From a virus, in the IMG/VR virus record IMGVR_UViG_3300012147_000006, positions 62,001 through 126,000 of that record: a DNA stretch of 64,000 bases. One strand, written 5' to 3'. Each line of letters opens with the position of its first letter. Within the stretch, counting starts at the first letter, position 1. The position numbers and the translations under genes were made by a program. The notes under the pieces were generated by a model that searched no databases, was not told where the DNA came from, and was given only the letters and a program-made list of their open reading frames with translations. Positions 20,150 to 34,357 of this stretch are shown piece by piece.

Positions 20150-20171
20150 TAGGGAGAGTTTCTAAGTTTAT

Positions 20172-20200
20172 AAAAAAAAAGGGGAGCAATTCGCCCCCCT
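20172..20200 (-). terminator. Intrinsic terminator
   Basis: AGGGGGGCGAATTGCTCCCCTTTTTTTTT on the minus strand. Confidence 0.85.
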
Positions 20201-20217
20201 CGTTGTTGTTTCGTTTC

Positions 20218-20787: not shown

Positions 20788-20816
20788 AATGTTTGTTTTA
20801 TTATTGGTTACATACT

Positions 20817-20845
20817 TATAACGATATGTTTTTAAAAAGTTACAA
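20817..20845 (-). promoter_or_regulatory. Early-type promoter element, copy 44
   Basis: Core AAAAACATA. Diverges from copy 45, 69 bases away; the gap is A/T-rich without other signal. Confidence 0.85.
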
Positions 20846-20914
20846 AATCAAATTTCTACCTTAGAAAGTTCGCTTACTTTCTTATACGCAAATAAAAATT
20901 AATGTTCTATATCT

Positions 20915-20943
20915 TTGTAACTTTTTGAATTTTGGTCGTTATA
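20915..20943 (+). promoter_or_regulatory. Early-type promoter element, copy 45 (plus strand)
   Basis: Core GAATTTTGG, followed by TGTAACC and an A-rich leader to ATG 20972. Confidence 0.85.
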
Positions 20944-20971
20944 TATATGTAACCAATAAAAACATTAAAAG

Positions 20972-21232
20972 ATGATTGATTTAACGCAAGAGCAAAAGAA
21001 CAAAATTCAGGAGAATACTGTAAGAGATTCAGGAGTCATTTGCTTTGAAGAGTACCATTCAGCTGACGGTGAAGTAACAGTAACCAATATTAATATTAAC
21101 AAGCAGCCTGGATTCTATGCCGACAGGGTATATACCTTAAAAAACAAAAACAAAAACATTCTTGTCTCTAAAAGCGCTGGTGATATTCTTGATGAATATA
21201 CAAAGATAATGCTTGTAAAATTAAAATTGTAA
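20972..21232 (+). CDS. Hypothetical protein, 86 aa
   Basis: MIDLTQEQKNKIQENTVRDS, then strands (GEVTVTNININKQPGFYADR). Its TAA is the TAA of TTGTAAC in promoter copy 46, showing the same gene/promoter fusion on the plus strand. Confidence 0.8.
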   Translation: MIDLTQEQKNKIQENTVRDSGVICFEEYHSADGEVTVTNININKQPGFYADRVYTLKNKNKNILVSKSAGDILDEYTKIMLVKLKL

Positions 21233-21255
21233 CTTTTTAAATTCCTGTCGTTATA
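21227..21255 (+). promoter_or_regulatory. Early-type promoter element, copy 46 (plus strand)
   Basis: Core AAATTCCTG, then TGTAACC. Last copy in the window. Confidence 0.85.
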
Positions 21256-21281
21256 TTAATGTAACCAAACAAGTAGAAATT

Positions 21282-21422
21282 ATGAGCAAAGATATTAAAG
21301 CACCAAAGTTTGAAGTCATTCAATTGACGCAAGGTGAGATACAAGATGCAATGAAGCATAGCGTACACAAGTCTAAGAAGACGTACACACGAAAGGCAAA
21401 GCACAAAGGTAAGAGGTACTAA
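21282..21422 (+). CDS. Small basic protein, 46 aa
   Basis: MSKDIKAPKFEVIQLTQGEI, then KHSVHKSKKTYTRKAKHKGK; about one third Lys/Arg/His. Probably binds nucleic acid. Followed by GC-rich inverted repeats at 21423-21540 that may end its RNA. Confidence 0.7.
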   Translation: MSKDIKAPKFEVIQLTQGEIQDAMKHSVHKSKKTYTRKAKHKGKRY

Positions 21423-21743
21423 CCCCCTACCCTGTTTAAGCCCCTTACAGATAGGCTCTTATTTAAGGGGTCTATTTAAGGCTCGGAAGGAAAATAAGCC
21501 CCTAAAAAAGCCGCCCCTCCATAGGGGGTCCAAGACCTCTCACGAATTTTTCCCCATTTTTTTTACAATATTCTCAACCAACGTATATTCCCTATCATAC
21601 GCATTGTTGCTCCAGGTTTATTATTATTTTTCTCAACCAATCCCGTCAAGGACAAAATGTCCTATAGAATGTCTTTGAGAATTGTGAATATAAGCTATAT
21701 TGCTTATAAAGGACAATATAAGCTCCTGGGCTTATAATACGTT

Positions 21744-21761
21744 CGGAATGACCATCGGAAT
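21744..21761 (+). repeat. 18-bp repeat, copy 1
   Basis: CGGAATGACCATCGGAAT, itself two CGGAAT units 6 bases apart. A partial copy (CGTTCGGAATAA) is near 21820. Confidence 0.85.
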
Positions 21762-21774
21762 TTTCTTAATACTT

Positions 21775-21802
21775 ATTTGCCGCATCCTTTACTGCGATTA
21801 GG
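21775..21802 (+). repeat. Two-part repeat ATTTGCCGCAT / CTGCGATTAGG, copy 1
   Basis: The two parts are separated by 6 bases here; it directly follows 18-bp repeat copy 1. Confidence 0.8.
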
Positions 21803-21880
21803 ATAGCTAACTGCCGTAACGTTCGGAATAAATAGTTCTTTCATCATGACGAGGAAAAGTTTTCTCTTTGTTAATAAGTC

Positions 21881-21910
21881 AATCCTTAAAAATTTTTTCC
21901 CAAATTTTTT
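21881..21910 (+). repeat. 30-bp direct repeat, copy 1
   Basis: AATCCTTAAAAATT then TTTTCCCAAATTTTTT; A/T-rich, candidate unwinding element. Confidence 0.85.
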
Positions 21911-21936
21911 AAGCTAATTTCTGGACCAATTACGCT

Positions 21937-21954
21937 CGGAATGACCATCGGAAT
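21937..21954 (+). repeat. 18-bp repeat, copy 2
   Basis: Identical to 21744-21761, same orientation, 193 bases on. Confidence 0.85.
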
Positions 21955-22004
21955 CTCTCTGAGAAAAAACCTCTACACAACACTGATAGCAAAGCTTTAA
22001 CGAG

Positions 22005-22022
22005 CGGAATGACCATCGGAAT
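22005..22022 (+). repeat. 18-bp repeat, copy 3
   Basis: Identical to the others, 68 bases after copy 2. Confidence 0.85.
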
Positions 22023-22023
22023 T

Positions 22024-22051
22024 ATTTGCCGCATAAAGCGCTGCGATTAGG
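22024..22051 (+). repeat. Two-part repeat, copy 2
   Basis: Same two parts and spacing as 21775-21802, again right after an 18-bp repeat (copy 3). A third partial (ATTTGCCGCAC) is at 22058-22068. Confidence 0.8.
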
Positions 22052-22084
22052 TGTTCTATTTGCCGCACTCAAAGATATTGTTCA

Positions 22085-22098
22085 TTCGTCATGACGAA
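22085..22098. repeat. Perfect palindrome TTCGTCATGACGAA
   Basis: Centre of a 22-base segment (22081-22102) that is identical at 14960-14981 inside small RNA candidate b; partial copies near 2873 and 21841. Confidence 0.8.
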
Positions 22099-22172
22099 CA
22101 AGAAACTTTCTCTGGGGGGTAGGGGGTCCGTATAAGGGGGTGCCCCTTTTTCCTATGGACTTACAAAAAGTG

Positions 22173-22202
22173 AATCCTTAAAAATTTTTTCCCAAATTTT
22201 TT
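22173..22202 (+). repeat. 30-bp direct repeat, copy 2
   Basis: Identical to 21881-21910, 292 bases on. Confidence 0.85.
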
Positions 22203-22281
22203 ATTGTAAATTTTGGGAACAAGTTAACAGTGGTCTTTGAATAGTTTCTTCATTCTATGTATGTGAGAAATGACAAGACAC

Positions 22282-22392
22282 TTATATGCAAGGTGCAGCA
22301 ACGAAGTTTCTGATAGGCCCATCTTTTTTCTCTTCAAATGTTCGAGTATATTCTTCGTACTTAAATTCCCAGAGTTCTATATCTTCATTCAT
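22282..22392 (-). CDS. Small protein, 36 aa, last gene of Cys-tail operon
   Basis: MNEDIELWEFKYEEYTRTFE..., ends AAPCI. TAATG overlap with the preceding gene. Cys is second last, but the tail differs from the HC/YC pattern. Confidence 0.55.
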   Translation of the reverse strand: MNEDIELWEFKYEEYTRTFEEKKDGPIRNFVAAPCI

Positions 22393-22580
22393 TAGCAGTA
22401 ATCTTGTATTATTTTTTCACGCCTACACCTGACAGCCAAATCCAGGAAACGATAAGCTCTAACGAGTTCATGAGTACCTGTGCTGAGGCCCCAGAAATGG
22501 ACTTCAGTTTCATAATCTCCTATTGATTGGTTGCACCTGGTTTCCCACTTAATTATTTCTTCTCTTGTAATCTTACTCAC
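22392..22580 (-). CDS. Cys-tail protein, 62 aa (ends IIQDYC)
   Basis: MSKITREEIIKWETRCNQSI. GTG start overlaps the end of the gene before it (CACTGTGAGTAA). C-terminal RCRREKIIQDYC fits the family tail: a helix with basic residues then Asp/Lys-His/Tyr-Cys. Not related in its N-terminal half to other members except KVTENQIINWET in the 22980 gene. Confidence 0.75.
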   Translation of the reverse strand: MSKITREEIIKWETRCNQSIGDYETEVHFWGLSTGTHELVRAYRFLDLAVRCRREKIIQDYC

Positions 22581-22758
22581 AGTGTTTTCTATATATTTTA
22601 TGGTAATGCAATTTAATAATCCAATAGTGAGACTCCTCTTGTTTGTCTTCTCCCATGATTCTTAAATTACTTTCCATTAGATTCAACAATTGCTCCAGCG
22701 TCAAACCTTGTTGCTTGAGAACTCCATTGACTTCTTCTTTTGTTAGGTTATTTATCAC
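22573..22758 (-). CDS. Cys-tail protein, 61 aa (ends YRKHCE)
   Basis: MINNLTKEEVNGVLKQQGLT, tail LHYHKIYRKHCE. GTG start inside the tail codons of the previous gene (CATTGTGATAAA). Confidence 0.75.
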   Translation of the reverse strand: MINNLTKEEVNGVLKQQGLTLEQLLNLMESNLRIMGEDKQEESHYWIIKLHYHKIYRKHCE

Positions 22759-22987
22759 AATGCTTCAATTTAATTAACATCATCCTATATTCAATTGAAT
22801 TTGTTACACAGAAGAGTGCGGTTTCTTCCCACCCTCTCTTGGAGCCAAGTCTATTCTGAACTGAACCGTCACTTCTAATGTGACTTACATATCCGCAATC
22901 CATAGCCTTGCAGTACTTAACATAATCAAGGTCATAAATTTTGGTCCTATATTCCAATTCGTTTATATCATTTCTAAAATCATCCAC
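22748..22987 (-). CDS. Cys-tail protein, 79 aa (ends LKHCDK)
   Basis: MDDFRNDINELEYRTKIYDL, four internal Cys, tail IEYRMMLIKLKHCDK. GTG start overlapping previous gene by 8 bases. Confidence 0.75.
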   Translation of the reverse strand: MDDFRNDINELEYRTKIYDLDYVKYCKAMDCGYVSHIRSDGSVQNRLGSKRGWEETALFCVTNSIEYRMMLIKLKHCDK

Positions 22988-23186
22988 AGTGGTCTTGTTT
23001 TATTTTTATCATTCTAAGTTGTATTACCTTAAATATTGAAAACACTGACATTTCAGCACATTCTTCATATGACATTTCAATGGTATTATCGTAGAGATTG
23101 TCTAAATATTCTTGATGGACGGTTTCCCAGTTAATAATTTGGTTCTCGGTGACCTTGCCTCCCCTCCTTCTTCTAATATTCGCCAT
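22980..23186 (-). CDS. Cys-tail protein, 68 aa (ends KQDHCG)
   Basis: MANIRRRRGGKVTENQIINW, tail VIQLRMIKIKQDHCG. ATG overlaps the previous tail. Confidence 0.75.
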   Translation of the reverse strand: MANIRRRRGGKVTENQIINWETVHQEYLDNLYDNTIEMSYEECAEMSVFSIFKVIQLRMIKIKQDHCG

Positions 23187-23430
23187 GGTCTCTAAGTATC
23201 TTTTTCATCCTGTAGTAAATTGATTTCATAAGTGCGTCACATGCTCTCCCAAGAGATAACATGGAGTCTTTGTTGCATTCATAATTAATGTCGTAGTGAC
23301 GAATGTTGTCCTCCAGGGAAAAAGTCTGTTCTATGATTTTTTCAGTAGAAGTAACTTGGAAGTTTAAATATATAAGTTCTCCTTTTGGAGTTATAATCCC
23401 TGGCGGTATAAATTCTTTTCCTTTATGCAC
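23173..23430 (-). CDS. Cys-tail family relative, 85 aa (Cys lost: LRDHGEY)
   Basis: MHKGKEFIPPGIITPKGELI, tail SIYYRMKKILRDHGEY. The tail matches YRM-I-DH of its neighbours but Gly replaces Cys, in the one junction where ATG rather than GTG starts the next gene. Confidence 0.75.
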   Translation of the reverse strand: MHKGKEFIPPGIITPKGELIYLNFQVTSTEKIIEQTFSLEDNIRHYDINYECNKDSMLSLGRACDALMKSIYYRMKKILRDHGEY

Positions 23431-23713
23431 AGTGTTTTTTTAAAATTAATAAATTCATGTAATACAAATATTTCTCCAGGTGATACATGGTAAACTCATC
23501 TTTATACTCTCCTTGTTTAAAGTAAGCATCTGAATATCTCTTATGAGATTCAACATTATTCTCAATGCTATCCTTGGTATCAATAAAAATGTCCCTCATA
23601 TGAATGGGTGGCATTCTAAGCGATTTCCTCAAACTTGCAAGAAACCGTTCCATATCCTCATCGCTAACTGTATTTGGATACACGACAAACGTTCTTTTAT
23701 TATCCTTACTCAC
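23423..23713 (-). CDS. Cys-tail protein, 96 aa (ends LKKHCA)
   Basis: MSKDNKRTFVVYPNTVSDED, tail LYYMNLLILKKHCA. GTG start in CATTGTGAGTAA. Confidence 0.75.
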   Translation of the reverse strand: MSKDNKRTFVVYPNTVSDEDMERFLASLRKSLRMPPIHMRDIFIDTKDSIENNVESHKRYSDAYFKQGEYKDEFTMYHLEKYLYYMNLLILKKHCA

Positions 23714-23801
23714 AATGCTTCTCTTTTATGTTATAGTGCATTAGGTGGATGCATTTCTTGGGCTTGAACTCGTTGGGGTCATATATATTCTGTTCACTCA
23801 C
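23706..23801 (-). CDS. Mini Cys-tail protein, 31 aa (ends KEKHCE)
   Basis: GTG at 23801 overlaps the stop of the 23794 gene; product MSEQNIYDPNEFKPKKCIHL... ending IKEKHCE. Very short, but start and stop both use the same overlap signals as its neighbours. Confidence 0.65.
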   Translation of the reverse strand: MSEQNIYDPNEFKPKKCIHLMHYNIKEKHCE

Positions 23802-24132
23802 AGTAGTCCTTTCTTATTTTCTTCTCCATCACAGTCAAGAGGTTTGCCAGAATATCTTTCCTAAGAAAGTCTGGAATATCTGTATCAAGCATTGACTTCA
23901 TCTTCTCTACTCTTCCCTCCAGAGAAAGAGTGCTAAGTTCAATTGTTTTTGTTTTAGCTATTTCCTTATCAATTTCTTTTTTAAGAATGCTTGTGAGAGC
24001 TGCTTCTATGTCAATGCCATACAGTTCCAACAGCTCTCTTGTTTCTTGTGAAACAGGCTTAATTGAGAACTCGGTGCCATGGAATTCATAGGTGTATTCT
24101 TCTGTTGGCAATTTTATCTCTTCTTTTGTCAT
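23794..24132 (-). CDS. Cys-tail protein, 112 aa (ends RKDYCE)
   Basis: MTKEEIKLPTEEYTYEFHGT, a beta-like N-terminus then helices; tail VMEKKIRKDYCE. ATG overlaps previous stop (TAATG). Confidence 0.8.
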   Translation of the reverse strand: MTKEEIKLPTEEYTYEFHGTEFSIKPVSQETRELLELYGIDIEAALTSILKKEIDKEIAKTKTIELSTLSLEGRVEKMKSMLDTDIPDFLRKDILANLLTVMEKKIRKDYCE

Positions 24133-24395
24133 TAGCAGTGGTCTATTTTTATTTTCTTCATCATAACTCCTATTATTGTATCGAGCGTCAATAATTTTTC
24201 TGTAATTGTTCGCTCATGCGTAATTCTCTCCTTAAGATTTGTTAGCTGCGTGCTTATGCTAATTGTTGAAAGTCCTGCTATTTGCATCATCTCATTGAAT
24301 GCTTCGGCTCCCATATTTTCTCCGTCAACCACAAATCCCACAATATTGGTACCAGTCTGGTTCCAGACAATCTCTGTTTTATTCGATTCGTTCAT
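24132..24395 (-). CDS. Cys-tail protein, 87 aa (ends IDHC)
   Basis: MNESNKTEIVWNQTGTNIVG; tail VMMKKIKIDHC. First gene of the ten-gene operon, behind a host-type promoter. Its TGC Cys codon precedes TAATG, so here the Cys is kept without a GTG start to explain it. Confidence 0.8.
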   Translation of the reverse strand: MNESNKTEIVWNQTGTNIVGFVVDGENMGAEAFNEMMQIAGLSTISISTQLTNLKERITHERTITEKLLTLDTIIGVMMKKIKIDHC

Positions 24396-24400
24396 GTGCT

Positions 24401-24430
24401 CAAAGTTATGAAAAAATGGTCAATTTTCAA
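24401..24430 (-). promoter_or_regulatory. Bacteroidota-type promoter of Cys-tail operon
   Basis: TTG, 19 bases, TAACTTTG; matches the -33/-7 pattern of Bacteroidota primary sigma factors. ATG follows within 10 bases of the -7 box. Confidence 0.75.
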
Positions 24431-24439
24431 AAAGAATGT

Positions 24440-24447
24440 ATATTTAT
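24440..24447 (+). promoter_or_regulatory. Late-type ATATTTAT motif
   Basis: 36 bases before the plus-strand gene at 24483; variant of CTATTTAT. Confidence 0.4.
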
Positions 24448-24482
24448 TAAATATAACAAAACAACACAAAAACAAAACAATT

Positions 24483-24704
24483 ATGGCATTACCAGGAGTA
24501 TCATTTAAGGAATTCGTAAAGAATCCGATAGTGGCATTACTCTTCATGTCCCTAATGGCGGTGGGTTACCTTTATTACGATAATAAGAGTACCTTAACGT
24601 CACAAGTGGAGACATTGCAAGAGGACATTAAAACCCTCAAAGAGGATTACAAAGAATTAAACGAGAAGTTCATTGAGTCACTCAAAGAGCTTCACAATCA
24701 CTAA
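24483..24704 (+). CDS. Membrane-anchored coiled-coil protein, 73 aa
   Basis: MALPGVSFKEFVKNPIVALL...: one transmembrane helix (about residues 14-33), then a 35-residue coiled coil (TSQVETLQEDIKTLKEDYKE). The layout fits an inner-membrane spanin or a holin-like lysis accessory, but no lysis enzyme is nearby. Next gene starts 5 bases on. Confidence 0.75.
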   Translation: MALPGVSFKEFVKNPIVALLFMSLMAVGYLYYDNKSTLTSQVETLQEDIKTLKEDYKELNEKFIESLKELHNH

Positions 24705-24709
24705 AAAAT

Positions 24710-25270
24710 ATGAAAAAAGAATATAAGAAAGCTATATTAATAGCGGTATCAGGATTGGCGCTGATGTTCATGGTTAAAATGTGCAAGTCAGAAGATTTCA
24801 CAAAGATTTACCAGAAGGATAAGGAGGATATAAAAAAGTTAGGAGAGTTGCAGCACGAGAGCGACAGCTTGCTAACAGAGATGCTTCATGACCTTGATAC
24901 CAGGAGAAATATGTACAGCAGTGAGATTGACAGCTTGAACAACATCGTCCTAAACGATAACCTTACAGTAGAAGAGGTTGAGAAACTTAAAAAGAAAGTG
25001 AAAGATGCGCAGAAGCTATTGAAGGATGCTCAAGATGCCAAGGGTGTTATTATAATTGACGCTGGCATGACGATTAGCGAAATAGTTCTTGACTCAATTA
25101 TTTACAACTATATTTACAAAGATTCTGTACAGTGGAATATTGTTGAGAAAGACTCTATTGTATACAACATAGTCCACAAAGACACTGTGATTGACAGGAA
25201 AGTTTATAAAATAGACACTGTTTACTATGACGGTGATGACGTTAAGAAGCTGAAGCTTAAAAACGATTAA
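24710..25270 (+). CDS. Membrane-anchored repeat protein, 186 aa
   Basis: MKKEYKKAILIAVSGLALMF gives an N-terminal transmembrane anchor; then a long coiled coil (residues 30-115), then strand repeats of the type KDSVQWNIVE / KDSIVYNIVH / KDTVIDRKVY. Likely spans the periplasm with its partner at 24483. Spanin-like function is inference. Confidence 0.75.
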   Translation: MKKEYKKAILIAVSGLALMFMVKMCKSEDFTKIYQKDKEDIKKLGELQHESDSLLTEMLHDLDTRRNMYSSEIDSLNNIVLNDNLTVEEVEKLKKKVKDAQKLLKDAQDAKGVIIIDAGMTISEIVLDSIIYNYIYKDSVQWNIVEKDSIVYNIVHKDTVIDRKVYKIDTVYYDGDDVKKLKLKND

Positions 25271-25297
25271 GAGGTCAAAAAATTTTTACGTAAAAAC

Positions 25298-25327
25298 GGT
25301 CATTCTAAATTTAGAGTGACTTTTTTT
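25298..25327 (+). terminator. Intrinsic terminator
   Basis: GTCATTCTAAATTTAGAGTGAC then seven T; also usable by the convergent minus genes. Confidence 0.85.
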
Positions 25328-25330
25328 ATT

Positions 25331-25753
25331 TTAGACCTTTGACATTACCCAGCTGCTATTTTCCCATTTGCCAGCGCCATAATATTTAACATTACCACCA
25401 CACTTAGGGCAAGGATTGTGAGCCCACATATCACTTTGCATTCCTATCGCTTCGCAGTTACCGCATCTGTTGACTTTTGTAAATGTTCCTCTATAGTATG
25501 TGATGCCAGGTTTAACATGCTCAACTTTCTTCTTTGGTGGAGTTGGCATTGTGCCTTCTTTAATTATCCTTGATGGTGGCGGAGGTGGTGGAGCAACTCT
25601 ACCTTTGATTACCTTTTTGATTGCACCTCCTTCATCACGAATAAATTCATTAATGTTAAACTTGGGTTCTTCCTTAATTTTTTCTCTGGCTTTAATCTTG
25701 GCAATAGCCTTAGACTTAATTCCGATTATGTATCCAATTGCAAATGCAATCAC
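25331..25753 (-). CDS. Membrane-anchored zinc-ribbon protein, about 147 aa with apparent frameshift
   Basis: Intact frame (140 aa from GTG) has a transmembrane start (AFAIGYIIGIKS), a basic stretch, PPPPPP, then CGNC...CPKCGG zinc ribbon. An ATG at 25773 that overlaps the previous stop would give MGYFFIAV joined to this frame if the run of six T at 25760-25765 had seven. So the true 5' end is probably at 25773. Confidence 0.7.
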   Translation of the reverse strand: MIAFAIGYIIGIKSKAIAKIKAREKIKEEPKFNINEFIRDEGGAIKKVIKGRVAPPPPPPSRIIKEGTMPTPPKKKVEHVKPGITYYRGTFTKVNRCGNCEAIGMQSDMWAHNPCPKCGGNVKYYGAGKWENSSWVMSKV

Positions 25754-25772
25754 TGCTATAAAAAATATCCCA

Positions 25773-26009
25773 TTATTTAAAGTCTATGTGAAATGTAACA
25801 TCTGTTGTATCGTTGTTATGCATTTCGTAAATATAAGTTGTATCTCCTTCTGCGGAAATCTCAAGTGTTGGCTCCATTGGACTGTCGAGTCTTGTTGATA
25901 GCTTGGTTACGTGTATTGCGTTAATTACGATTACCAGAAGTATCATCCCAAGGATTCCTGGGAGTATCTTTAGAAAGTAATCTAAAAAGCTATTGTGTGG
26001 TTCTTTCAT
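25773..26009 (-). CDS. Single-pass membrane protein, 78 aa
   Basis: MKEPHNSFLDYFLKILPGIL, transmembrane helix through VIVINAI, then a polar acidic C-terminus rich in Thr/Asp. Overlaps the previous gene by ATGA. Unknown. Confidence 0.75.
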   Translation of the reverse strand: MKEPHNSFLDYFLKILPGILGMILLVIVINAIHVTKLSTRLDSPMEPTLEISAEGDTTYIYEMHNNDTTDVTFHIDFK

Positions 26010-26533
26010 ATATTAATTGGCGCTTTGGTGCTGTTTACAATCTCCTGGAGCCACGTTCTCTTCTCTTCGGCAATATCTCTTAGATTTTTCATAACGATGT
26101 CTGTAAGGACTTCTTTTTTGATTCTCTCGTAGAAGTTTTTCCCCTCTACATTATCCCAAGCTTTCTTTTCATCATCACGAAGTTTAGCGGCTCTATCGTA
26201 TTCTTGGGCTACTATCATTTCGCCTTTCTCCTCTTTGATTCTGATGAGTTCAGCAATACCGCAATCTTTAGATATTTCTTGATACTTTTCATTAGCAACG
26301 CTCTTCACTTCTTCAGATAAACCTCCTGCTCCGAATCTTTTAGTCAATTTTTCACCAGACACAAGTTGAATTGTGAATTGTACGTGAACGGTTTTCTTTT
26401 TTGGATTGATGATGTCTTTTGTTATATCTAAAAAAGATTTTGTCTCCAATTCTGGAATATACTCCTCCAATTCTGAAATCGTCTCAATGTATTCAGCTGT
26501 AAATATTTTATCATCTAATCTTAGTGTTGTCAT
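26006..26533 (-). CDS. Hypothetical protein with UVR-like motif, 175 aa
   Basis: N-terminal half is beta-like (VHVQFTIQLVSGEKLTKRFG); residues near 115-130 read AQEYDRAAKLRDDEKKA, very like the UVR motif of UvrB/UvrC/ClpC (E-x-A-A-x-L-R-D). In those proteins the motif mediates protein contacts. Role here unknown. Confidence 0.75.
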   Translation of the reverse strand: MTTLRLDDKIFTAEYIETISELEEYIPELETKSFLDITKDIINPKKKTVHVQFTIQLVSGEKLTKRFGAGGLSEEVKSVANEKYQEISKDCGIAELIRIKEEKGEMIVAQEYDRAAKLRDDEKKAWDNVEGKNFYERIKKEVLTDIVMKNLRDIAEEKRTWLQEIVNSTKAPINI

Positions 26534-26862
26534 TATATTTTATTTAAAGTATCTGTAACAATGTCAAGCGCTGCAGGGCGAGTGCTTCCTTTTCTGTCAA
26601 GGTCTCCTTCTGTGATTCCTTTTCCCTTGTATTTTTCGAACAAAGCAGAGATGTCAGCCATGAAATCTCTGAAGTGAATGTTTACCTCTGTAATACTTTC
26701 TGACTCAACATAGAATCTAAGTTCGTAATTGCTTTCAGTGATGCCGTAGCCGTTTTTAATTCTAAGAATGGCAGCGTCAACCTGTTCAGCATCTTGGTAT
26801 TCCAGGAGCCTTTTATATTCACGATGTTCTCTGGTTTTCTCCAAAAATTCTTCTTCGTTCAT
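26533..26862 (-). CDS. Hypothetical protein, 109 aa
   Basis: MNEEEFLEKTREHREYKRLL, NYELRFYVESESITEVNIHF. One-base overlap (TAATG) with the next gene. Unknown. Confidence 0.7.
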   Translation of the reverse strand: MNEEEFLEKTREHREYKRLLEYQDAEQVDAAILRIKNGYGITESNYELRFYVESESITEVNIHFRDFMADISALFEKYKGKGITEGDLDRKGSTRPAALDIVTDTLNKI

Positions 26863-26863
26863 C

Positions 26864-27116
26864 TTAGTATTTTTTAATCATTGGATGCTCAATTACTTTG
26901 ACAAATTCTTTCTTTGTCAAGTATATGGATTCGATTATTTTTGTCGAGGAGGGCAGATTTATCTGTATCAGTGTATTCATATAAGACAGAGCCTCCGCCA
27001 CAACCGCCAACTTCGTATCTATAACTACGCCATCCAAAGAAAGTTTTCCTCTGGATGGTGTAATCATGTTTTTCTCCATGTTGGACGAATCTTATATTTA
27101 AGACAAGTCTTCCCAC
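26864..27116 (-). CDS. Frameshifted gene, hypothetical protein
   Basis: GTG at 27116 follows the previous stop; frame 1 reads MGRLVLNIRFVQHGEKHDYT...GGCGGGSVLYEYTDTDKSALLDK then loses sense. A second frame continues IIESIYLTKKEFVKVIEHPM to the TAA at 26864, just before the next ATG. Removing one base from the five-A run at 26938-26942 joins them into one protein of about 84 aa. Sequencing error, mutation or +1 shifting are all possible. Confidence 0.6.
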
Positions 27117-27872
27117 TTAGAAGTGTATTTTACCAGTTCTTGTGTGGAAGTTGTATAGCTTAACAAGCTCATTGACCATGTCTCCAACTTTAGATTGTTC
27201 ACGAACGATACCTGAGTTAAGTTTAAGCTTGGTAGTCATTTTCTCATGAACATAGTTAGGGTGCATATAAAGTTTAAGCATTGCCTTAACAAACTTTTCT
27301 TTCTTAGCGAAATCATAGTAATTTTCGAAGATAGCCATGTGAGTAAAGAAATCGTCAATGTCGATGTCTTCTCTAAATTCGAAAGAACCTTGTTTAATGT
27401 TGTGTGAGTGAGAACGTGCGTTCTTTGAGATTTTACCGAATGCACCAACTACAGAAATTCTCTGGTCGTATTTAGCACAAAGGTCTAAAAGCATGATGTA
27501 AGAGTCTTTCCCTCTCTTAGCATAGTGACGAGCATAATCCATAGCGTTCCAGTTCTTAGCAGCTCTGTTGATGTCTGCAGCAGCATAGATATGAATATCT
27601 TCTGATACGATGAAATGAATTGGAAGGCCAAGCTCTTTACATGCAAGGTATCTGTTTTGTCCATCGACAATCTCCATTTGCTTGTTAACAAGGATTGGTT
27701 GATATTGAGTATAATCGTTTGCTTCGATTGACTCTTTAACTTTTTTGTAGTGAGACGGGTCTCTGTTGAATTCGCTTAGTACGAACTTTTCATACTGTGT
27801 AGAAATCCAGATTTTAATGTCGGACATCTTTGCGAATGCTGCATCTTGTGCAGTATCATTTTTCGTTTCCAT
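27117..27872 (-). CDS. ParB/Srx-fold protein, 251 aa
   Basis: Residues 30-75 contain LSEFNRDPSHYKKVKESIEA, QYQPILVNKQMEIVDGQNRY and LACKELGLPIHFIV, the ParB-like nucleotide/DNA-binding core (GQNRY corresponds to the GERR-type box). A helical second half follows. ParB-like phage proteins range from DNA binders to nucleases; I cannot tell which. It has its own host-type promoter. Confidence 0.85.
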   Translation of the reverse strand: METKNDTAQDAAFAKMSDIKIWISTQYEKFVLSEFNRDPSHYKKVKESIEANDYTQYQPILVNKQMEIVDGQNRYLACKELGLPIHFIVSEDIHIYAAADINRAAKNWNAMDYARHYAKRGKDSYIMLLDLCAKYDQRISVVGAFGKISKNARSHSHNIKQGSFEFREDIDIDDFFTHMAIFENYYDFAKKEKFVKAMLKLYMHPNYVHEKMTTKLKLNSGIVREQSKVGDMVNELVKLYNFHTRTGKIHF

Positions 27873-27902
27873 AAATTTTTGTTTTGTAATTAAATTAGAC
27901 TA

Positions 27903-27934
27903 CAAATCTATAGAAACTTTTTAACCCTTGCAAA
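27903..27934 (-). promoter_or_regulatory. Bacteroidota-type promoter of ParB-like gene
   Basis: TTTG, 20 bases, TAGATTTG; -7 box is a perfect TAnnTTTG. Confidence 0.7.
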
Positions 27935-27936
27935 TT

Positions 27937-28146
27937 TTAAATGCAATATTTGCTCATTATTAGCTGAATTTGTCTATCTATAAGGTATTTTTGAGCCTTT
28001 ATTCTTATTAGATTGAGCGATTGATATTCGTCAGTCTCATAAAAGTCAACAATATTTTCGAGGTACCTCTCAATATCTCGTTCGGCTGCTCCAACTATGT
28101 AGTATATTTCTCCGTTGTGGATAAAACACGCATCTTCCTTGCTCAT
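27937..28146 (-). CDS. Cys-tail protein, 69 aa (ends SKYCI)
   Basis: MSKEDACFIHNGEIYYIVGA; tail RQIQLIMSKYCI matches the operon at 22.4-24.4 kb. Upstream 28147-28297 holds A/T-rich sequence with TTATTTATTG and a TGTCGG direct repeat, no ORF. Confidence 0.75.
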   Translation of the reverse strand: MSKEDACFIHNGEIYYIVGAAERDIERYLENIVDFYETDEYQSLNLIRIKAQKYLIDRQIQLIMSKYCI

Positions 28147-28297
28147 CTATTTGCTTATTATAAGTCTTAATAATAAATATACAATAAATAAGAAGAAATT
28201 TAATTAGAATATTTTTAAATTTAATTAATGGTGAAAAAATTTTGTCGGAATCCGCCTGTCGGCAATGACTGTGCGATGAAAAAATTGTATTATTTTT

Positions 28298-28627
28298 TTA
28301 TAGAAATTTCTTTAAAAAACAAATTCTTTCCTGCTCTAACTTAATGCCTCTTTCTTTAGAGTCAATATATTTTTGAATATCTTCTTTGCTTATTTCTTGA
28401 AAACACGGGTAGTTTTGATTTTTCACCAGTTTCATTTCACGTTCTAATTCTCCTAAGTTGTGTTTAGAACTATTTGTGAAGTTAGTTAACTTGCATAGAT
28501 AAACGCCAGAAAACTTTCCTGGATAGGATTCTATCAATTCACCAGTGTCCTTAATGAATTCTACAATGAAGTCGCCCATTTGGTAAAACTTACTTGGTTC
28601 AAGTTCTTTTCCGCTAAAGTGCTTCAT
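28298..28627 (-). CDS. Hypothetical protein, 109 aa
   Basis: MKHFSGKELEPSKFYQMGDF, strands (VEFIKDTGELIESYPGKFSG), ends KLEQERICFLKKFL. Unknown. Confidence 0.75.
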   Translation of the reverse strand: MKHFSGKELEPSKFYQMGDFIVEFIKDTGELIESYPGKFSGVYLCKLTNFTNSSKHNLGELEREMKLVKNQNYPCFQEISKEDIQKYIDSKERGIKLEQERICFLKKFL

Positions 28628-28629
28628 AA

Positions 28630-29079
28630 TTAATCCATTCCATCTACATCATCTTGAGTAATCTCAAGACAATCAAATTTATCCATGCAATCCTCAAGAA
28701 TTACATGCAAGAAAGAGCTGTTGTTTCTTGGAGACAAACCTCTTAACATGGTGTGTCCATTCTTGTTTTTGTACTTCCACACTGGGATGTTCCACTTCTT
28801 ATAACCTGCATCATCATTTTTTGCCCAGCTATCATCATAAGTTTCGAACATATCAATTCTAAGATTTTTGTCTCCGCCAAATCCTGCTCCAAGTCTATTG
28901 AATCCTTTCGGCATTCCAAGAAAAAACTTACCTATGCCAACTGCTGCAGTTCCAGCTCTGTGATTTCCACAAGCTGAACTTAATCCTTCGTCATCTTTCT
29001 TGAAGCATGTAATGTCGCTTCCAGCCATGCATCCTGGGCACTGGTATTCTTCGATTGCGTCTTTAACGTTATCTTTCAT
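28630..29079 (-). CDS. Conserved phage hypothetical, YQCPGC...PKGFNRLG motif, 149 aa
   Basis: EYQCPGCMAGSDITCFKKDD, SSACGNHRAGTAAVGIGKFF, LGMPKGFNRLG and LRGLSPRNNSSFLHVILEDC: a metal-binding-looking Cys/His set with a PKGFNRLG segment I recall in phage hypotheticals. The ATG at 29079 is preferred to an upstream extension overlapping the previous gene. Confidence 0.8.
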   Translation of the reverse strand: MKDNVKDAIEEYQCPGCMAGSDITCFKKDDEGLSSACGNHRAGTAAVGIGKFFLGMPKGFNRLGAGFGGDKNLRIDMFETYDDSWAKNDDAGYKKWNIPVWKYKNKNGHTMLRGLSPRNNSSFLHVILEDCMDKFDCLEITQDDVDGMD

Positions 29080-29081
29080 GT

Positions 29082-29384
29082 TTAGTGTTCTAAAAATTCG
29101 TAAACTTCTGTGACTGTATCCCAAACGTCTTGGCCAATAACTTCACAGTATTGTTCGTGAGTAAACCCAAGTTGCTTAAGGATTTCGTTTTGAATGTCAG
29201 TGCTTACTTCAGACTCAGCTTCTCCACGACCAGTTTCTCGATAAGCATCTTGCTCGTCTTCATACTCGTCTTCCCAATCTTCATCAAGATAATTATAGAT
29301 TGCCTCTTCAACTAAATGCTGAAGGACACTTTCTTCATATTCTTTTCTCAAAAATTCGATTACTGATTCTTTAGTAGCTTCCAT
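29082..29384 (-). CDS. Acidic helical protein, 100 aa
   Basis: MEATKESVIEFLRKEYEESV, DEDWEDEYEDEQDAYRETGR. Unknown. A TTTATTTAT motif lies about 20 bases upstream. Confidence 0.75.
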   Translation of the reverse strand: MEATKESVIEFLRKEYEESVLQHLVEEAIYNYLDEDWEDEYEDEQDAYRETGRGEAESEVSTDIQNEILKQLGFTHEQYCEVIGQDVWDTVTEVYEFLEH

Positions 29385-29430
29385 ACTTAGGTTATACGAT
29401 AAATAAAAGAAAGTGTTCTATTTATCTCGA

Positions 29431-29898
29431 CTAAGCTGTTTGTTTCCACTTGGTTGGAAACTTATAATCTTTTAAAAGCTCAAAAGCTTTCTCTGGAGTT
29501 ATATAGCCATCAATTTTAACAAAGAACTCTCTCCAGTTCTCATCAGACTTTGCTCTCTTAGCGTTTTTAGCCTTCTCTTTCTTCTTCTTTTCTTCATCAA
29601 GAGAGACTACTGAAAATCCATCACCCATTTCTTCATCACAGACAGATTGGTCTTTTCTGTAAGAACTCCCATCAACTTCAAATCTAAAACCATCTATTGT
29701 AGTGTGGTATGTGCATGTGATATAGCACGAGCCTGTAGTCTCGTCATAGTCATCATAACTTTCTCTTAGGCATTCTACTACCTCCTCGATAGTCATTTCT
29801 TCGCCCTCACCTTCTTCCTCTTGAAAGTATTCTGCAAACACTTTCTTAAGAACTACCATTACATCACTTGGGATGTCTTCTATTTTATCAATATACAT
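29431..29898 (-). CDS. Acidic hypothetical protein, 155 aa
   Basis: MYIDKIEDIPSDVMVVLKKV, EEEGEGEEMTIEEVVECLRE, a beta segment (SCYITCTYHTTIDGFRFEVD), then a Lys-rich linker and DGYITPEKAFELLKDYK. Unknown. Confidence 0.75.
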   Translation of the reverse strand: MYIDKIEDIPSDVMVVLKKVFAEYFQEEEGEGEEMTIEEVVECLRESYDDYDETTGSCYITCTYHTTIDGFRFEVDGSSYRKDQSVCDEEMGDGFSVVSLDEEKKKKEKAKNAKRAKSDENWREFFVKIDGYITPEKAFELLKDYKFPTKWKQTA

Positions 29899-29912
29899 AA
29901 TTATTTATTTTT

Positions 29913-30164
29913 TTATGAGTCCATTACGTGGTCTGAACATAAGTTATAGTCAACGCAATCTTGGTTAGTTGTATCAACGGGTTGTCCGCAATAACATTTC
30001 TTTGGAACTTCTGAAGCTGGAACTGCGTCCAGGTGCTCCATTAGTTTTTCTTTAAATTTTCTATATCCGTCAGCATTCTCAAACCCTTCTTCGTCCAAGC
30101 AGATACCTATTCCATAAAGGAAATCGTCTATGATTGTTTTCACGCTATATTTCTTGTGACCCAT
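29913..30164 (-). CDS. Hypothetical protein with Cys pairs, 83 aa
   Basis: MGHKKYSVKTIIDDFLYGIG; C-terminus PKKCYCGQPVDTTNQDCVDY suggests metal binding. Unknown. Confidence 0.7.
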   Translation of the reverse strand: MGHKKYSVKTIIDDFLYGIGICLDEEGFENADGYRKFKEKLMEHLDAVPASEVPKKCYCGQPVDTTNQDCVDYNLCSDHVMDS

Positions 30165-30207
30165 CTGGCCATCATAAGTGTTAACGTATTTCTTAAATTT
30201 TTATAAG

Positions 30208-30414
30208 TCAAAATTCTCCATCATCAAGTATATCTTTGTTGCTAACTTTTTCTTTTTCCCACCCCATTAATAATCGACCTATAATTGACACAACAAAACC
30301 TGCAGGTACAAGTGTGTATTTTAAGTCTGGCCTTCCAGTCATCATTGGAATAAACATTACAACGATTCCGATTACATAAAAAAAATATTGAGGCAATTTT
30401 ATAAACCATATCAA
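30208..30414 (-). CDS. Two-helix membrane protein, 68 aa
   Basis: MIWFIKLPQYFFYVIGIVVM and LVPAGFVVSIIGRLLM are two transmembrane segments. ATGA overlap with the previous gene. Role unknown; holin-like size only. Confidence 0.75.
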   Translation of the reverse strand: MIWFIKLPQYFFYVIGIVVMFIPMMTGRPDLKYTLVPAGFVVSIIGRLLMGWEKEKVSNKDILDDGEF

Positions 30415-30740
30415 GCTTCTTTTCTTAGTTTTTCAGCAAATTCCTGGAGTTCGTTCCACTCTTTTTCATATACCTCTGGGTCTTCGTTATATTTTTCTTT
30501 TCTATTCTTAAGTCTCCAAGGAGTTATTGAATGCATGGACGTATTGTGGTAATCTAATTCAATTTCTTCAACCGTCTTTAGTATTTCCTCCTTTGTCTTC
30601 GCAAGCCTAAGAGTGAAGTGAATTTGATTCATAGCTGTCTTGGCGGCTTCGTTTTGTTCCTCTATGATTTTTTCAATCTCAACATCAAGTTCTTCAATGC
30701 TTGAGGAGTTGAGCTACTCTAAGTGTTCTTCCCAGTTCAT
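30411..30740 (-). CDS. Helical protein interrupted by an in-frame amber codon
   Basis: ATG at 30740 follows the previous stop by one base and reads MNWEEHLE, TAG (30714-30716), then LNSSSIEELDVEIEKIIEEQ... straight into the intact ORF starting ATG 30632 (MNQIHFTLRLAKTKEEI, 73 aa). The whole 109-codon frame is coherent. A nonsense change, read-through, or internal restart at 30632 are possible. Confidence 0.6.
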
Positions 30741-30741
30741 A

Positions 30742-31038
30742 TTATTGAATTGTAAAATCTACAACTTGTATTTCATCAACAGTGTTGTGCCATCTATTTT
30801 CTCTCTTGTCACATTTTCTCCACTTAAACTCTTCATAGTGCCTTAACATAACTTCATGGTCTTCATCTTCTACTTCAAGTTTTCTATATTCTTCTTGGCG
30901 AGCTATCTCCATTTCAAAAATCCTTGTCGCTTCAGCAACTGCAGCTTCTTTATCTTTGAAGAGGTTTTTGTTGACTCCTCCACCTTCGTAGATGCAGCCT
31001 TGATGTATTCCGTATACAACGTCTTTATCTTCGCTCAT
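30742..31038 (-). CDS. Hypothetical protein, 98 aa
   Basis: MSEDKDVVYGIHQGCIYEGG, EAAVAEATRIFEMEIARQEE, KRENRWHNTVDEIQVVDFTI. Looks like a small phage protein of the type reporting clock-less 'query' motifs; no function assigned. Confidence 0.75.
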   Translation of the reverse strand: MSEDKDVVYGIHQGCIYEGGGVNKNLFKDKEAAVAEATRIFEMEIARQEEYRKLEVEDEDHEVMLRHYEEFKWRKCDKRENRWHNTVDEIQVVDFTIQ

Positions 31039-31040
31039 AT

Positions 31041-31169
31041 TTACTCGCCATTTTGTTCGTTAATAAACTCTTCTCTAATTGCTACCAAAAGCTCCATTAA
31101 CAATTTATTGGCCTCATCTGCTTTGTCAACCATTCCGAAGCTCATCATTATTTTGATTCTTTCTTCCAT
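31041..31169 (-). CDS. Small helical protein, 42 aa
   Basis: MEERIKIMMSFGMVDKADEA..., ends EEFINEQNGE two bases before the next ATG. An earlier in-frame ATG at 31199 is possible. Confidence 0.6.
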   Translation of the reverse strand: MEERIKIMMSFGMVDKADEANKLLMELLVAIREEFINEQNGE

Positions 31170-31266
31170 TGTGGCAACCTGGAGCACAACTTTTTGCATA
31201 CTTCTCCGACAAGGGCTTGGTGTGCTCGTATGACAATATTTGCATTAATTGTGTTGCTTTTTTCAC
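31126..31266 (-). CDS. Small protein, 46 aa, overlapping the next gene
   Basis: GTG start at 31266 (ATG at 31245): MKKATQLMQILSYEHTKPLS then CAPGCHNGRKN. Overlaps the 31041-31169 gene by 44 bases in another frame. Weak evidence. Confidence 0.4.
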   Translation of the reverse strand: MKKATQLMQILSYEHTKPLSEKYAKSCAPGCHNGRKNQNNDELRNG

Positions 31267-31286
31267 TGCTCAAATTTAGTTAAAAT

Positions 31287-31517
31287 TTATTTATTTACCA
31301 AATGTATTTTAATGAACCTGGAAATTAACCCTGGAGTTACAGTTGGCATTCCAGTCGGAGGATTAACCCACTCAGGTTCTGAAATATATCTTTTTTCATA
31401 CTTAAGTTTTTTATCCTTCCATATTTTAATAGTTGAAACTCCTTGATAGCCTCTTATTACTGACCACGCCCATAAGTCGCCCCCATCTATCGTTATATTT
31501 CTGTGCTTCTTTTTCAT
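31287..31517 (-). CDS. Hypothetical protein, 76 aa
   Basis: MKKKHRNITIDGGDLWAWSV; beta-rich (YQGVSTIKIWKDKKLKYEKR). ATGA overlap with the previous Cys-tail gene (CATTGCATATGA). Confidence 0.7.
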   Translation of the reverse strand: MKKKHRNITIDGGDLWAWSVIRGYQGVSTIKIWKDKKLKYEKRYISEPEWVNPPTGMPTVTPGLISRFIKIHLVNK

Positions 31518-31708
31518 ATGCAATGTTTTATAAAAATTTCTCTAAACATTTCGTGGTAATTTCTTTCATACCCTTTAATCAAATAATTTACTTGATAATC
31601 TGAAAGCCCGTTGTTTACTATTATGCGCAAGTCTTTAGATGACAAGTGAACAAATTTCTTGTTTCTGAGATGTTCTGGAAGTCTTCTTATTTTGTCTTCT
31701 TCTAACAT
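31514..31708 (-). CDS. Cys-tail protein, 64 aa (ends FIKHCI)
   Basis: MLEEDKIRRLPEHLRNKKFV; tail YHEMFREIFIKHCI. TAATG overlap with previous gene. Confidence 0.75.
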   Translation of the reverse strand: MLEEDKIRRLPEHLRNKKFVHLSSKDLRIIVNNGLSDYQVNYLIKGYERNYHEMFREIFIKHCI

Positions 31709-31899
31709 TAGCAATATTTTTTTAAGATGTATTTATTTTTCTCCTCAATAGAAAAGATAAGACTTTGCCTTGTCATCCACAAACCTCTTTTTACAAAAGC
31801 TGTATTAGCAAACTTAGGGTCCTTAAGTCTTTCTGTTAAAATTTTATGCAATTGCTCCCCCGCTTTATCCCACTTCATTTTTCTTGCTCTTGTTTTCAT
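31708..31899 (-). CDS. Cys-tail protein, 63 aa (ends LKKYC)
   Basis: MKTRARKMKWDKAGEQLHKI; tail SIEEKNKYILKKYC. First gene of the 31.9-28 kb block. Confidence 0.75.
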   Translation of the reverse strand: MKTRARKMKWDKAGEQLHKILTERLKDPKFANTAFVKRGLWMTRQSLIFSIEEKNKYILKKYC

Positions 31900-31904
31900 T
31901 GCAG

Positions 31905-31937
31905 CGAAGGTACGAATAAATGAAAAAATTTCCAAAA
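31905..31937 (-). promoter_or_regulatory. Probable Bacteroidota-type promoter
   Basis: TTTTTG, 20 bases, TACCTTCG; close to the -33/-7 pattern. Precedes the gene at 31899. Confidence 0.55.
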
Positions 31938-31944
31938 ATAAAAA

Positions 31945-31952
31945 CTATTTAT
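31945..31952 (+). promoter_or_regulatory. Late-type CTATTTAT motif
   Basis: Precedes the plus genes at 31972 and 32019. Confidence 0.5.
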
Positions 31953-31971
31953 TAAGACAACACAAAAATAG

Positions 31972-32022
31972 ATGGAGCCTGAAGAAGACTACGATGACTA
32001 TAACTGGTTTAACGAACAATGA
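31972..32022 (+). CDS. Possible 16-codon leader ORF
   Basis: MEPEEDYDDYNWFNEQ, ending in ATGA overlap with the kinase-like gene. Placement right after the late-type motif is the only support. Confidence 0.4.
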   Translation: MEPEEDYDDYNWFNEQ

Positions 32023-32804
32023 ATATAAAAAAAATAATACAAGAAGAACTTAAAAAGGTTTTTGAAGCTGTTGTCTATAGTGACTACAAAGACTTTCCAG
32101 ACTTTTTTGACCCACAGTTCAACCCACAGATGAGGAGCTATCCTACGACTGGGCAGCACAAATTTGGAACCATGGTGAAAGAAGATTCTTTGGAAGAGGG
32201 TTATCCTGAAATGTTTAAGATAGAGGAGTTTAAGACTCTTACAACGTTTGCAGAGAGAATTAGATATTGTGAAGCATTTCTTCAAAGGATTTCTTCTGGT
32301 TCGTCAAGAATTGTATATAAAATTGATGATGAGAAAGTTTTAAAGCTTGCTAAGAACAAAAAAGGTATTGCTCAAAACCAGGTTGAGATTGACTTTGCAA
32401 AAGAAGGCTTAGATGATGTTTTGGCTACAATTTATGACTATGACCCAAATAGCTTGTGGACCGAAATGGAATTGGCCCAAAAGCTTAAAGTGGCTGATTT
32501 TAAAAAAATTACTGGATTTGATTTTAGAGATTTTGCTGTAGCTATTCACAATTATGGAGAAGATGCGAATGGGATTGGTGACAGAAGTTCGTATAAGCAA
32601 GATATTGATAAAGCTGTTGTAGAAGAGATGTGGGAAGACGAGTTTGTGTATGGAATATTTCAGTACATAGGAAATTTTGGAATACCTGCAGGGGATTTAA
32701 CAAGACTTAGCTCCTACGGTGTCGTTAAAGAGGGTGGAATAGAAAGGGTTGTGATTATTGATTATGGTTTAAATTCTGAAGTTTACGGCTCTTATTATTC
32801 TTAA
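32019..32804 (+). CDS. Protein kinase-like fold protein, 261 aa
   Basis: N-terminal helix MNIKKIIQEELKKVFEA resembles starts of four other proteins here. SGSSRIVYKIDDEKVLKLAK looks like a kinase glycine loop and VLK lysine; VVIIDYGLN near the C-terminus could be the DFG-type metal site. The HRD loop is not obvious, so activity is uncertain. Behind a late-type motif, hence possibly a virion-associated protein. Confidence 0.7.
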   Translation: MNIKKIIQEELKKVFEAVVYSDYKDFPDFFDPQFNPQMRSYPTTGQHKFGTMVKEDSLEEGYPEMFKIEEFKTLTTFAERIRYCEAFLQRISSGSSRIVYKIDDEKVLKLAKNKKGIAQNQVEIDFAKEGLDDVLATIYDYDPNSLWTEMELAQKLKVADFKKITGFDFRDFAVAIHNYGEDANGIGDRSSYKQDIDKAVVEEMWEDEFVYGIFQYIGNFGIPAGDLTRLSSYGVVKEGGIERVVIIDYGLNSEVYGSYYS

Positions 32805-32810
32805 AATCGA

Positions 32811-32838
32811 AAAAGCCCCCATTGCTGGAGGCTTTTTC
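32811..32838 (+). terminator. Intrinsic terminator
   Basis: AAAAGCCCCCATTGCTGGAGGCTTTTTC. Confidence 0.85.
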
Positions 32839-32912
32839 TTTGAACCAATAAATAAAGATGTCAATTGCGAGACGCATAGATGACCATCCTTAGATACAGA
32901 CGTTATATATCT

Positions 32913-33251
32913 TTAGTCCCAAATACCCTTGCTGCTGCTTGAGTTTGGAGACTTTTCAATTTCTTCTTCATTTGCAAACTTAAACGCTTCATTTGTTCTA
33001 TCGTAAACTTCTGTTCCAGCCTTAACGACTTTATCATAAGCTTTTGCAACGAATGAATTCATTTGCTCGTTCATCTTTGTCATCTTCTCTCCAAGCAGCG
33101 CTCCAGTTCCTCTTTCGATTTCCTCGTGACACCATTGAGTAAAGACAGCTTTATTATCAACTTCAAGAGTTGAGAACATTGCTTTTAATATTTCAATTTT
33201 TTCTTCTTGGCTTAGCGTTTCTGAGCCAGTTCCTGTGTTTGCTGTTTCCAT
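32913..33251 (-). CDS. Hypothetical protein, 112 aa
   Basis: METANTGTGSETLSQEEKIE; helical middle (MTKMNEQMNSFVAKAYDKVV); Ser-rich end. Unknown. Confidence 0.75.
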   Translation of the reverse strand: METANTGTGSETLSQEEKIEILKAMFSTLEVDNKAVFTQWCHEEIERGTGALLGEKMTKMNEQMNSFVAKAYDKVVKAGTEVYDRTNEAFKFANEEEIEKSPNSSSSKGIWD

Positions 33252-33286
33252 ATTCTTTATACGATTATTATTATAAAATGTTCTAT

Positions 33287-33775
33287 TTAATTTGTTCTAA
33301 TATATTCGACATCATCTAAATCGCTATTTTTTAGATGTTTATTGTTTAAATAAACTTTGTTCATAACGATGCTTTGCTTGTCTTTGAAGTCTGGGTGTTG
33401 CATTAAATCGCTTGCAATAGCCCATCTTCTATCTGCCTCCTCTCTTGAGAGGTCAAGAATAGATGTCATGAGCCATACAATGTGACCTTTTTCTTTAGGC
33501 TCATACTGATAAGCGTCTTTAAACGCTTCGCATCTTGTGCTCCAGGATTTGCTTTTTCTTTTTTCGTCTTCATTCTCTATAGTTTCGAAAATAGAATGTA
33601 CTGTTTTTTCTAATATAGCCTTCTTTTCTCCTATAGATAGATTGAATCCAGATTCATAGAAGTTTATTCTGGCGAAAAGCTTTTCTGAGGCTTCGTTGAA
33701 TATGAAACCTTGTTCTCCATCGTCAGATACGCTGCAGCTTATTTTAACTCCTTTTTCTATTTCTTCATTTGTCAT
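33287..33775 (-). CDS. Hypothetical protein, 162 aa
   Basis: MTNEEIEKGVKISCSVSDDG; helical C-terminal half (EADRRWAIASDLMQHPDFKD). Overlaps the previous gene by 11 bases. Unknown. Confidence 0.75.
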   Translation of the reverse strand: MTNEEIEKGVKISCSVSDDGEQGFIFNEASEKLFARINFYESGFNLSIGEKKAILEKTVHSIFETIENEDEKRKSKSWSTRCEAFKDAYQYEPKEKGHIVWLMTSILDLSREEADRRWAIASDLMQHPDFKDKQSIVMNKVYLNNKHLKNSDLDDVEYIRTN

Positions 33776-34016
33776 CTGGAATGTTTTTGTAATTATTAAA
33801 TGCGTAAACATATATCAATGATATAAGTGTTGACAAAGATATGATTAAAATCTCAAGTGAAAAAAATAATCTTAAATTAAATTCTAAAGAAATTGGTTTT
33901 CCTTCTGAAACATAATTTACAAGATTCATTACTACTTGAATTGCTATTAGAGTTAGTGTAAAAAGCACTACTCCAAATGTAAACATTTCTATAAAATCTC
34001 TTAACTTATTCTTCAT
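33765..34016 (-). CDS. Two-helix membrane protein, 83 aa
   Basis: FGVVLFTLTLIAIQVVMNLV and LEILIISLSTLISLIYVYAF are two transmembrane segments. Unknown. Confidence 0.75.
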   Translation of the reverse strand: MKNKLRDFIEMFTFGVVLFTLTLIAIQVVMNLVNYVSEGKPISLEFNLRLFFSLEILIISLSTLISLIYVYAFNNYKNIPDDK

Positions 34017-34042
34017 GTAAAAATATTAGTTAAACAATAAGC

Positions 34043-34243: not shown

Positions 34244-34357
34244 TTTGTTTTTTTTTTTTTTCTTGATTTGATGTCATAGACTTTGACATAGACAATATAT
34301 TGTTTATAAAAAACTTGTTCAGTTTTAGAAAACTTGTCTTTATGGAAAACTCATACA

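Follow-up and report, generated by a model that had tools for sequence, protein, structure and literature searches.

In large phages, small genes for early host takeover occur as tandem families of tiny, overlapping and fast-diverging open reading frames (ORFs) arranged in operons; to our knowledge, such families usually have no terminal signature in common. Protein ends that contain a cysteine pair between chains in zinc clasps and hooks (Rad50 CxxC, CD4/CD8-Lck). The capsid targeting sequence of phage T4 is N-terminal, serves packaging and is removed by proteolysis. It is the one short terminal element that the T4 internal proteins IPI, IPII, IPIII and Alt, which are small and otherwise unlike each other, have in common (PMC3012670). 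We examined a family of tiny proteins that end in His-Cys or Tyr-Cys, encoded by a large uncultured phage in a stretch of 64,000 nucleotides (hereafter the window) that comprises bases 62001-126000 of the 142 kb IMG/VR virus record IMGVR_UViG_3300012147_000006. These proteins have a C-terminal module in common that is conserved at the protein level and retained in a second phage, whereas their N-terminal parts diverge.

We detected 13 tiny, mostly overlapping ORFs on the minus strand between 22224 and 31935, 12 of which end in [K/D]-[H/Y]-C, while one (gene F) has lost the Cys. The Cys lies within the last three residues and is followed by 0-2 residues. Ten of the genes, J to A, follow each other in a single run (24395 to 22224), all with the [HY]C end except F; K is solitary and stands beside a ParB-like gene, and L and M are paired at 31.5-31.9 kb. 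An earlier note on this DNA had listed eleven of these tails and a Cys-less twelfth (LRDHGEY); all of them were recovered in place on the minus strand, and the set was extended by a thirteenth, ...HRMKKLFKDHC at 22224, which lies at the 3' end of the gene where the range of that note begins. Outside the cluster, [HY]C occurred within the last four residues in 1 of 216 predicted genes, these control genes coming from a home-made gene prediction. Many tail genes scored low in the same prediction; the evidence that they are real is therefore the conservation of the tail and not codon usage. The sole other [HY]C end among the predicted genes of the record belongs to a protein of 209 amino acids (aa) that terminates in GLERKYCL (L002:13884-14513); it was not matched by the tail profile and was excluded from the family.

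The shared stretch comprises about 24 residues, L-x3-I-x2-[RM]-M-x-K-I-x-K-[DK]-[HY]-C, and is recognisable even without [HY]C. In a leave-one-out profile restricted to the 22 residues before [HY]C, with the dipeptide excluded, 6 out of the 13 members scored above all 216 controls and most others scored high, K, L and C being weak. The summed score was 37.9 vs -89.0 +/- 17.6 for shuffled tails, and none of 500 shuffles reached 37.9. The idea that only the His/Tyr-Cys tail is shared was thus too narrow, as the common part takes in these helix residues and probably the preceding helix. That the other parts are unlike each other mostly holds: the mean pairwise z score was 3.6 for the tails vs 0.4 for the N-terminal parts, and similarity beyond the tail was found in few pairs, namely the orthologs K-La and the pairs E-B, E-Lj and G-Lh (names of the type La denote genes of the related phage described below). 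Two members are little more than a tail, namely the tail ORF of gene A and the 31-aa product of gene H; the latter shows that the module persists even by itself.

Relatives of the virus were sought in IMG/VR, in the INPHARED phages and in one genome-collection scan. The latter, for which the ParB-like gene and the gene next to it were the queries, retrieved a 7.4 kb contig (L096) from a metagenome-assembled genome (MAG) labelled Deltaproteobacteria. L096 is syntenic with the window and keeps the same gene order, with orthologs of the gene at 28630 (72% identity), of K (44%) and of ParB (67%). It likely derives from a related phage and not from a bacterium, because the same MAG (G016) also carries genes of nicotinamide adenine dinucleotide (NAD) salvage at 56-77%. 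Nine tail genes and the tail-less Lx lie there as an overlapping tandem two genes behind ParB; with K, a true ortholog that has kept its tail (LIIKKHCS), the contig holds 10 tail genes. Profile search revealed five further tail genes in a row on a second contig of the MAG (L119), likely from the same phage, which brings the related-phage total to 15. L096, L119 and L121 are all contigs of this MAG, and we observed several contigs of a large phage in it, split and perhaps misbinned.

The N-termini of the 15 related-phage genes are mostly unalignable. A profile built only from the window tails nevertheless recovered 9 of the 15 at an expectation value (E) <=0.05 among 8781 ORFs, together with one non-member, and the reverse search with the related-phage profile recovered 5 of the 13 window members, including the Cys-less F. 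Across all 28 members the pattern is L(-16) I(-12) [RM](-9) M(-8) K(-6) I(-5) K(-3) [KD](-2) [HY](-1) C(0); this consensus takes in the members of the second phage, and the independent test between the phages is the cross-profile search alone. Positions -5 (I/L), -2 (K/D/R) and -1 (H/Y; 22 His and 6 Tyr) are kept in 28/28 members and the Cys in 27/28, and by information content the Cys is the most conserved residue (6.0 bits), followed by the His/Tyr (4.6 bits).

The retention of this rare residue pair at the end of a helix would suit a chemical site, at which two or more tails of homo- or hetero-oligomers meet and either bind a metal in a (His-Cys)2 clasp, join by a disulfide or carry a thiol that is reactive or modified. 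We consider this doubtful, as Tyr replaces His in 6/28 members, gene F lacks the Cys and yet keeps the module otherwise, and no metal- or redox-protein family was matched. The invariant Cys/His ligands of a single-chain zinc motif are likewise not seen, with one Cys per module and His/Tyr at 22/6. An obligatory metal site within one chain is thus weakened, because His and Tyr alternate, F has lost its Cys and the module has no other conserved Cys or His; a metal site formed between subunits is possible.

Selection acts on the tail as protein, and both a start signal and a recent DNA copy can be discarded, because synonymous codons are random and the tail persists in varied contexts, including those without an overlapping successor. 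At identical residues of the window tails, 153 of 322 codon pairs were the same vs 157.7 expected from codon usage. When the second phage was included, 995 of 1825 were the same vs 901 expected by the usage of the window virus, a modest excess that we put down to a putative codon preference of that phage. TGTG forms the next GTG start in six window junctions and most members overlap the next gene, which would fit a role in translational coupling, where the tail, as RNA or as nascent peptide, aids restart on the following gene. This explanation is already contradicted and we regard it as highly improbable: the Cys is kept before a GTG start, TAATG, ATGA or TAGATG and also where no overlapping start follows (K, La, Lj and A), whereas an overlapping start does follow the tail-less Lx. 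An overlap signal would moreover show conserved nucleotides, and only at coupled junctions, whereas the synonymous codons are random and the tail is present at the uncoupled K, La and Lj. The related phage has retained the tail although its junction sequences are not those of the window, which is the opposite of an overlap conserved without its tail, the outcome that would have counted against the earlier note. The codon test, the varied junctions and the tails without a following gene rule out a start-signal or DNA-linker origin, and the argument of the earlier note that the tail is not only a start-signal effect is borne out.

AlphaFold models of J and G were based on thin alignments of 11-12 diverse sequences and had a mean predicted local distance difference test score (pLDDT) of 65 and 73. 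Both models agree on a C-terminal helical hairpin, with a pLDDT of about 78-90 in both helices and the last helix reaching the tail, and the shared residues are probably the second helix of this predicted hairpin. In many members the N-terminal part looks as if it consisted of short strands and a subsequent helix. Foldseek searches of PDB and BFVD with both models, which are of modest confidence, gave no match at E<=0.001, and the best hit of a sequence profile search of PDB had an E of 1.2. Pfam, PHROGs, NCBIfam and PADLOC gave nothing above the cut-off, only scattered weak matches of single members; a PADLOC match to ZorC1 (E 6e-4) and a match to a Type I specificity subunit, with one member each, were read as chance.

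We interpret these genes, at about even chances, as a phage gene family in which a C-terminal module common to all members serves docking or assembly and carries variable N-termini; the shared docking tail put forward in the earlier note fits best among the readings, and a tail conserved at the protein level is supported. Each member would combine a variable N-terminal part, which ranges from next to nothing to about 65 aa, and the common module, a helical hairpin whose second helix would end in I-x-K-[D/K]-[H/Y]-C at the C-terminus. Packing of the hairpin or of the partner would be the task of a hydrophobic stripe (L, I, M, I), and the terminal [H/Y]C would act as the contact least tolerant of change. 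Such a module may bring different small effectors of host takeover or counter-defence to one phage or host partner, or the tail proteins may assemble with each other. Tandem duplication in a co-translated operon would multiply the genes, and the N-terminal parts would diversify fast. A bolder version seems unlikely to us, in which a new kind of docking or covalent bond centred on the terminal Cys lets mix-and-match effectors all plug into one hub through their C-terminal helix; if true, new effectors could be added by changing the part before the tail. Among the genes of large phages are hundreds of tiny ones that escape recognition by profiles, and here a terminal signature unites 28 such genes into one family; this signature is a handle, as the tail could be used as bait for the shared partner and further members are findable.

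Several points weigh against the docking or assembly module. The docking partner is putative, and the AlphaFold hairpin was built on 11-12 diverse sequences, with low confidence in the N-terminal parts, which could represent one fold diverged beyond recognition and not different effectors. Only promoter-like motifs and a ParB match of 27% to Flavobacterium phages point to early expression and to a Bacteroidota host. A tblastn search of 50,697 phage records found no homologs, and the family is known from two viruses only, because neither tblastn nor the IMG/VR motif scans gave further homologs. In particular, the concatenated small proteins had no tblastn match among phages, one member from the MAG phage had three matches that we read as chance, and two narrow IMG/VR motif scans returned the same virus only, the remaining matches being internal motifs or stray short frames. 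Among 46 genomes of the class and phylum of the MAG, the family was found only in the MAG itself. Two relatives by NAD-salvage protein (G004 and G013; 405 and 429 kb) were without the tail family, and in a third (G002), which is syntenic, the contig ends short of the cluster. Three further records (L010, L082 and L083) have single genes in common with otherwise unrelated phages.

Plain tandem duplication would account for the family as one whole-length lineage with the fastest divergence at the N-terminus and with the C-terminal helix as no more than the structural core. The strand-then-helix look of many N-terminal parts and the few pairs similar past the tail (E-B, E-Lj, G-Lh) agree with it, but it leaves the top conservation of the Cys and His/Tyr at the helix end unexplained and we find it improbable. 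Also against it, the first 94 residues of gene I resemble a tail-less L096 gene (28% identity, E 8e-6), which hints at recombinable heads and tails, with the module gained or lost.

The tail genes and adjoining features of the window are listed below. Gene A is split over two frames, with a shift near an A6 run, and its DNA is identical in a second assembly (G001); a slippage site, a separate tail-only ORF or a decaying gene are all possible. A terminator after gene A was unsupported by folding (z -0.3).

Positions (window coordinates) and characteristics of the tail genes and adjoining features.
Feature	Position	Strand	Characteristics
Gene A, last of operon	22224..22392	minus	N-terminal ORF MNEDIELWEF... 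at 22282-22392; tail ORF ...HRMKKLFKDHC at 22224-22337, one frame off; end not overlapped by a minus-strand gene
Gene B	22392..22580	minus	62 aa; tail REKIIQDYC; junction to A TGCTAATG
Gene C	22573..22758	minus	61 aa; tail KIYRKHCE; TGTG supplies next GTG start
Gene D	22748..22987	minus	79 aa; tail LIKLKHCDK; MAG-phage profile match, E 7e-4
Gene E	22980..23186	minus	68 aa; tail MIKIKQDHCG
Gene F	23173..23430	minus	85 aa; tail MKKILRDHGEY, without Cys, module otherwise intact; MAG-phage profile match, E 0.0017
Gene G	23423..23713	minus	96 aa; tail LLILKKHCA; AlphaFold C-terminal helices 47-66, 73-95
Gene H	23706..23801	minus	31 aa; little besides tail NIKEKHCE
Gene I	23794..24132	minus	112 aa; tail KKIRKDYCE; residues 1-94 resemble tail-less L096 gene (2613-3014)
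Gene J, first of operon	24132..24395	minus	87 aa; tail MMKKIKIDHC; AlphaFold helices 47-60, 64-86
Region upstream of J	24396..24450	minus	candidate Bacteroidota-type -7 box TAACTTTG, read by eye
ParB-like gene	27117..27872	minus	adjoins K; syntenic anchor, 67% identity in L096
Gene K	27937..28146	minus	69 aa; tail LIMSKYCI; 64 nucleotides before ParB-like gene; L096 ortholog 44% identity, tail LIIKKHCS
Gene L	31514..31714	minus	66 aa; tail FREIFIKHCI; junction TGCATATGA
Gene M	31708..31935	minus	75 aa (63 aa if ATG at 31899); tail NKYILKKYC; junction TGCTAATG

The second assembly, a record of 168 kb, is identical to the window over 17120-34260 and extends about 72 kb further upstream; therefore, the genome measures at least about 214 kb. 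The virus encodes NAD-salvage enzymes, a tRNA nucleotidyltransferase, a thymidylate synthase and several GIY-YIG-like proteins, the latter called by eye. The NAD-salvage block (window 41700-46599) contains NadE-, NadD-, Nudix- and NAMPT/PncB-like genes, assigned by eye; it is conserved at 57-76% with G002, and such a block is present in huge phages. GIY-YIG homing endonuclease-like proteins are found between the metabolic genes at 44553-45263, 46652-47341, 53553-54353 and 55359-56213. The host is probably a member of Bacteroidota, because the nearest ParB-like matches among isolates are those of Flavobacterium phages (27%) and the promoter-like boxes near the tail cluster (TAACTTTG and others) resemble, by eye, Bacteroidota -7 boxes; the large phage in the MAG probably has a Bacteroidota host as well. 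We also found a dispersed element, TTGTAACTTTTT[AG]AA-N5-TCGTTATA...TGTAACCAA, in 44 copies between 454 and 21269 of the window (42 on the minus strand and 2 on the plus strand, at 20915 and 21225), with zero copies in the tail-gene region. An ATG often lies within about 20 bases after it, and it is probably a phage-specific promoter or leader.

The tail family resembles zinc clasps in its Cys-containing ends and differs from them in having a single Cys per tail, beside a His or Tyr, any bound metal being putative. Its genes also form an operon of tiny, overlapping, fast-diverging ORFs, as do early host-takeover families, but here all of them are tied together by a C-terminal Cys that hardly varies. 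With the T4 internal proteins the family has in common that small, otherwise dissimilar phage proteins carry one terminal element, and a similar tag for capsid targeting and ejection could pack unrelated small proteins into the head for delivery to the next host cell. Such a tag has a slim chance here: a neutral or acidic character is common among the members, the cluster has no linked scaffold or prohead protease, and promoter-like motifs suggest host-type early transcription. The shared element also differs from the T4 sequence in being C-terminal in all 28 members, with about 24 residues, an [H/Y]C end and no known link to packaging. If the docking function of the module is true, the tail family would be a second instance, apparently unrelated to the T4 internal proteins, of one address label on diverse small phage effectors.
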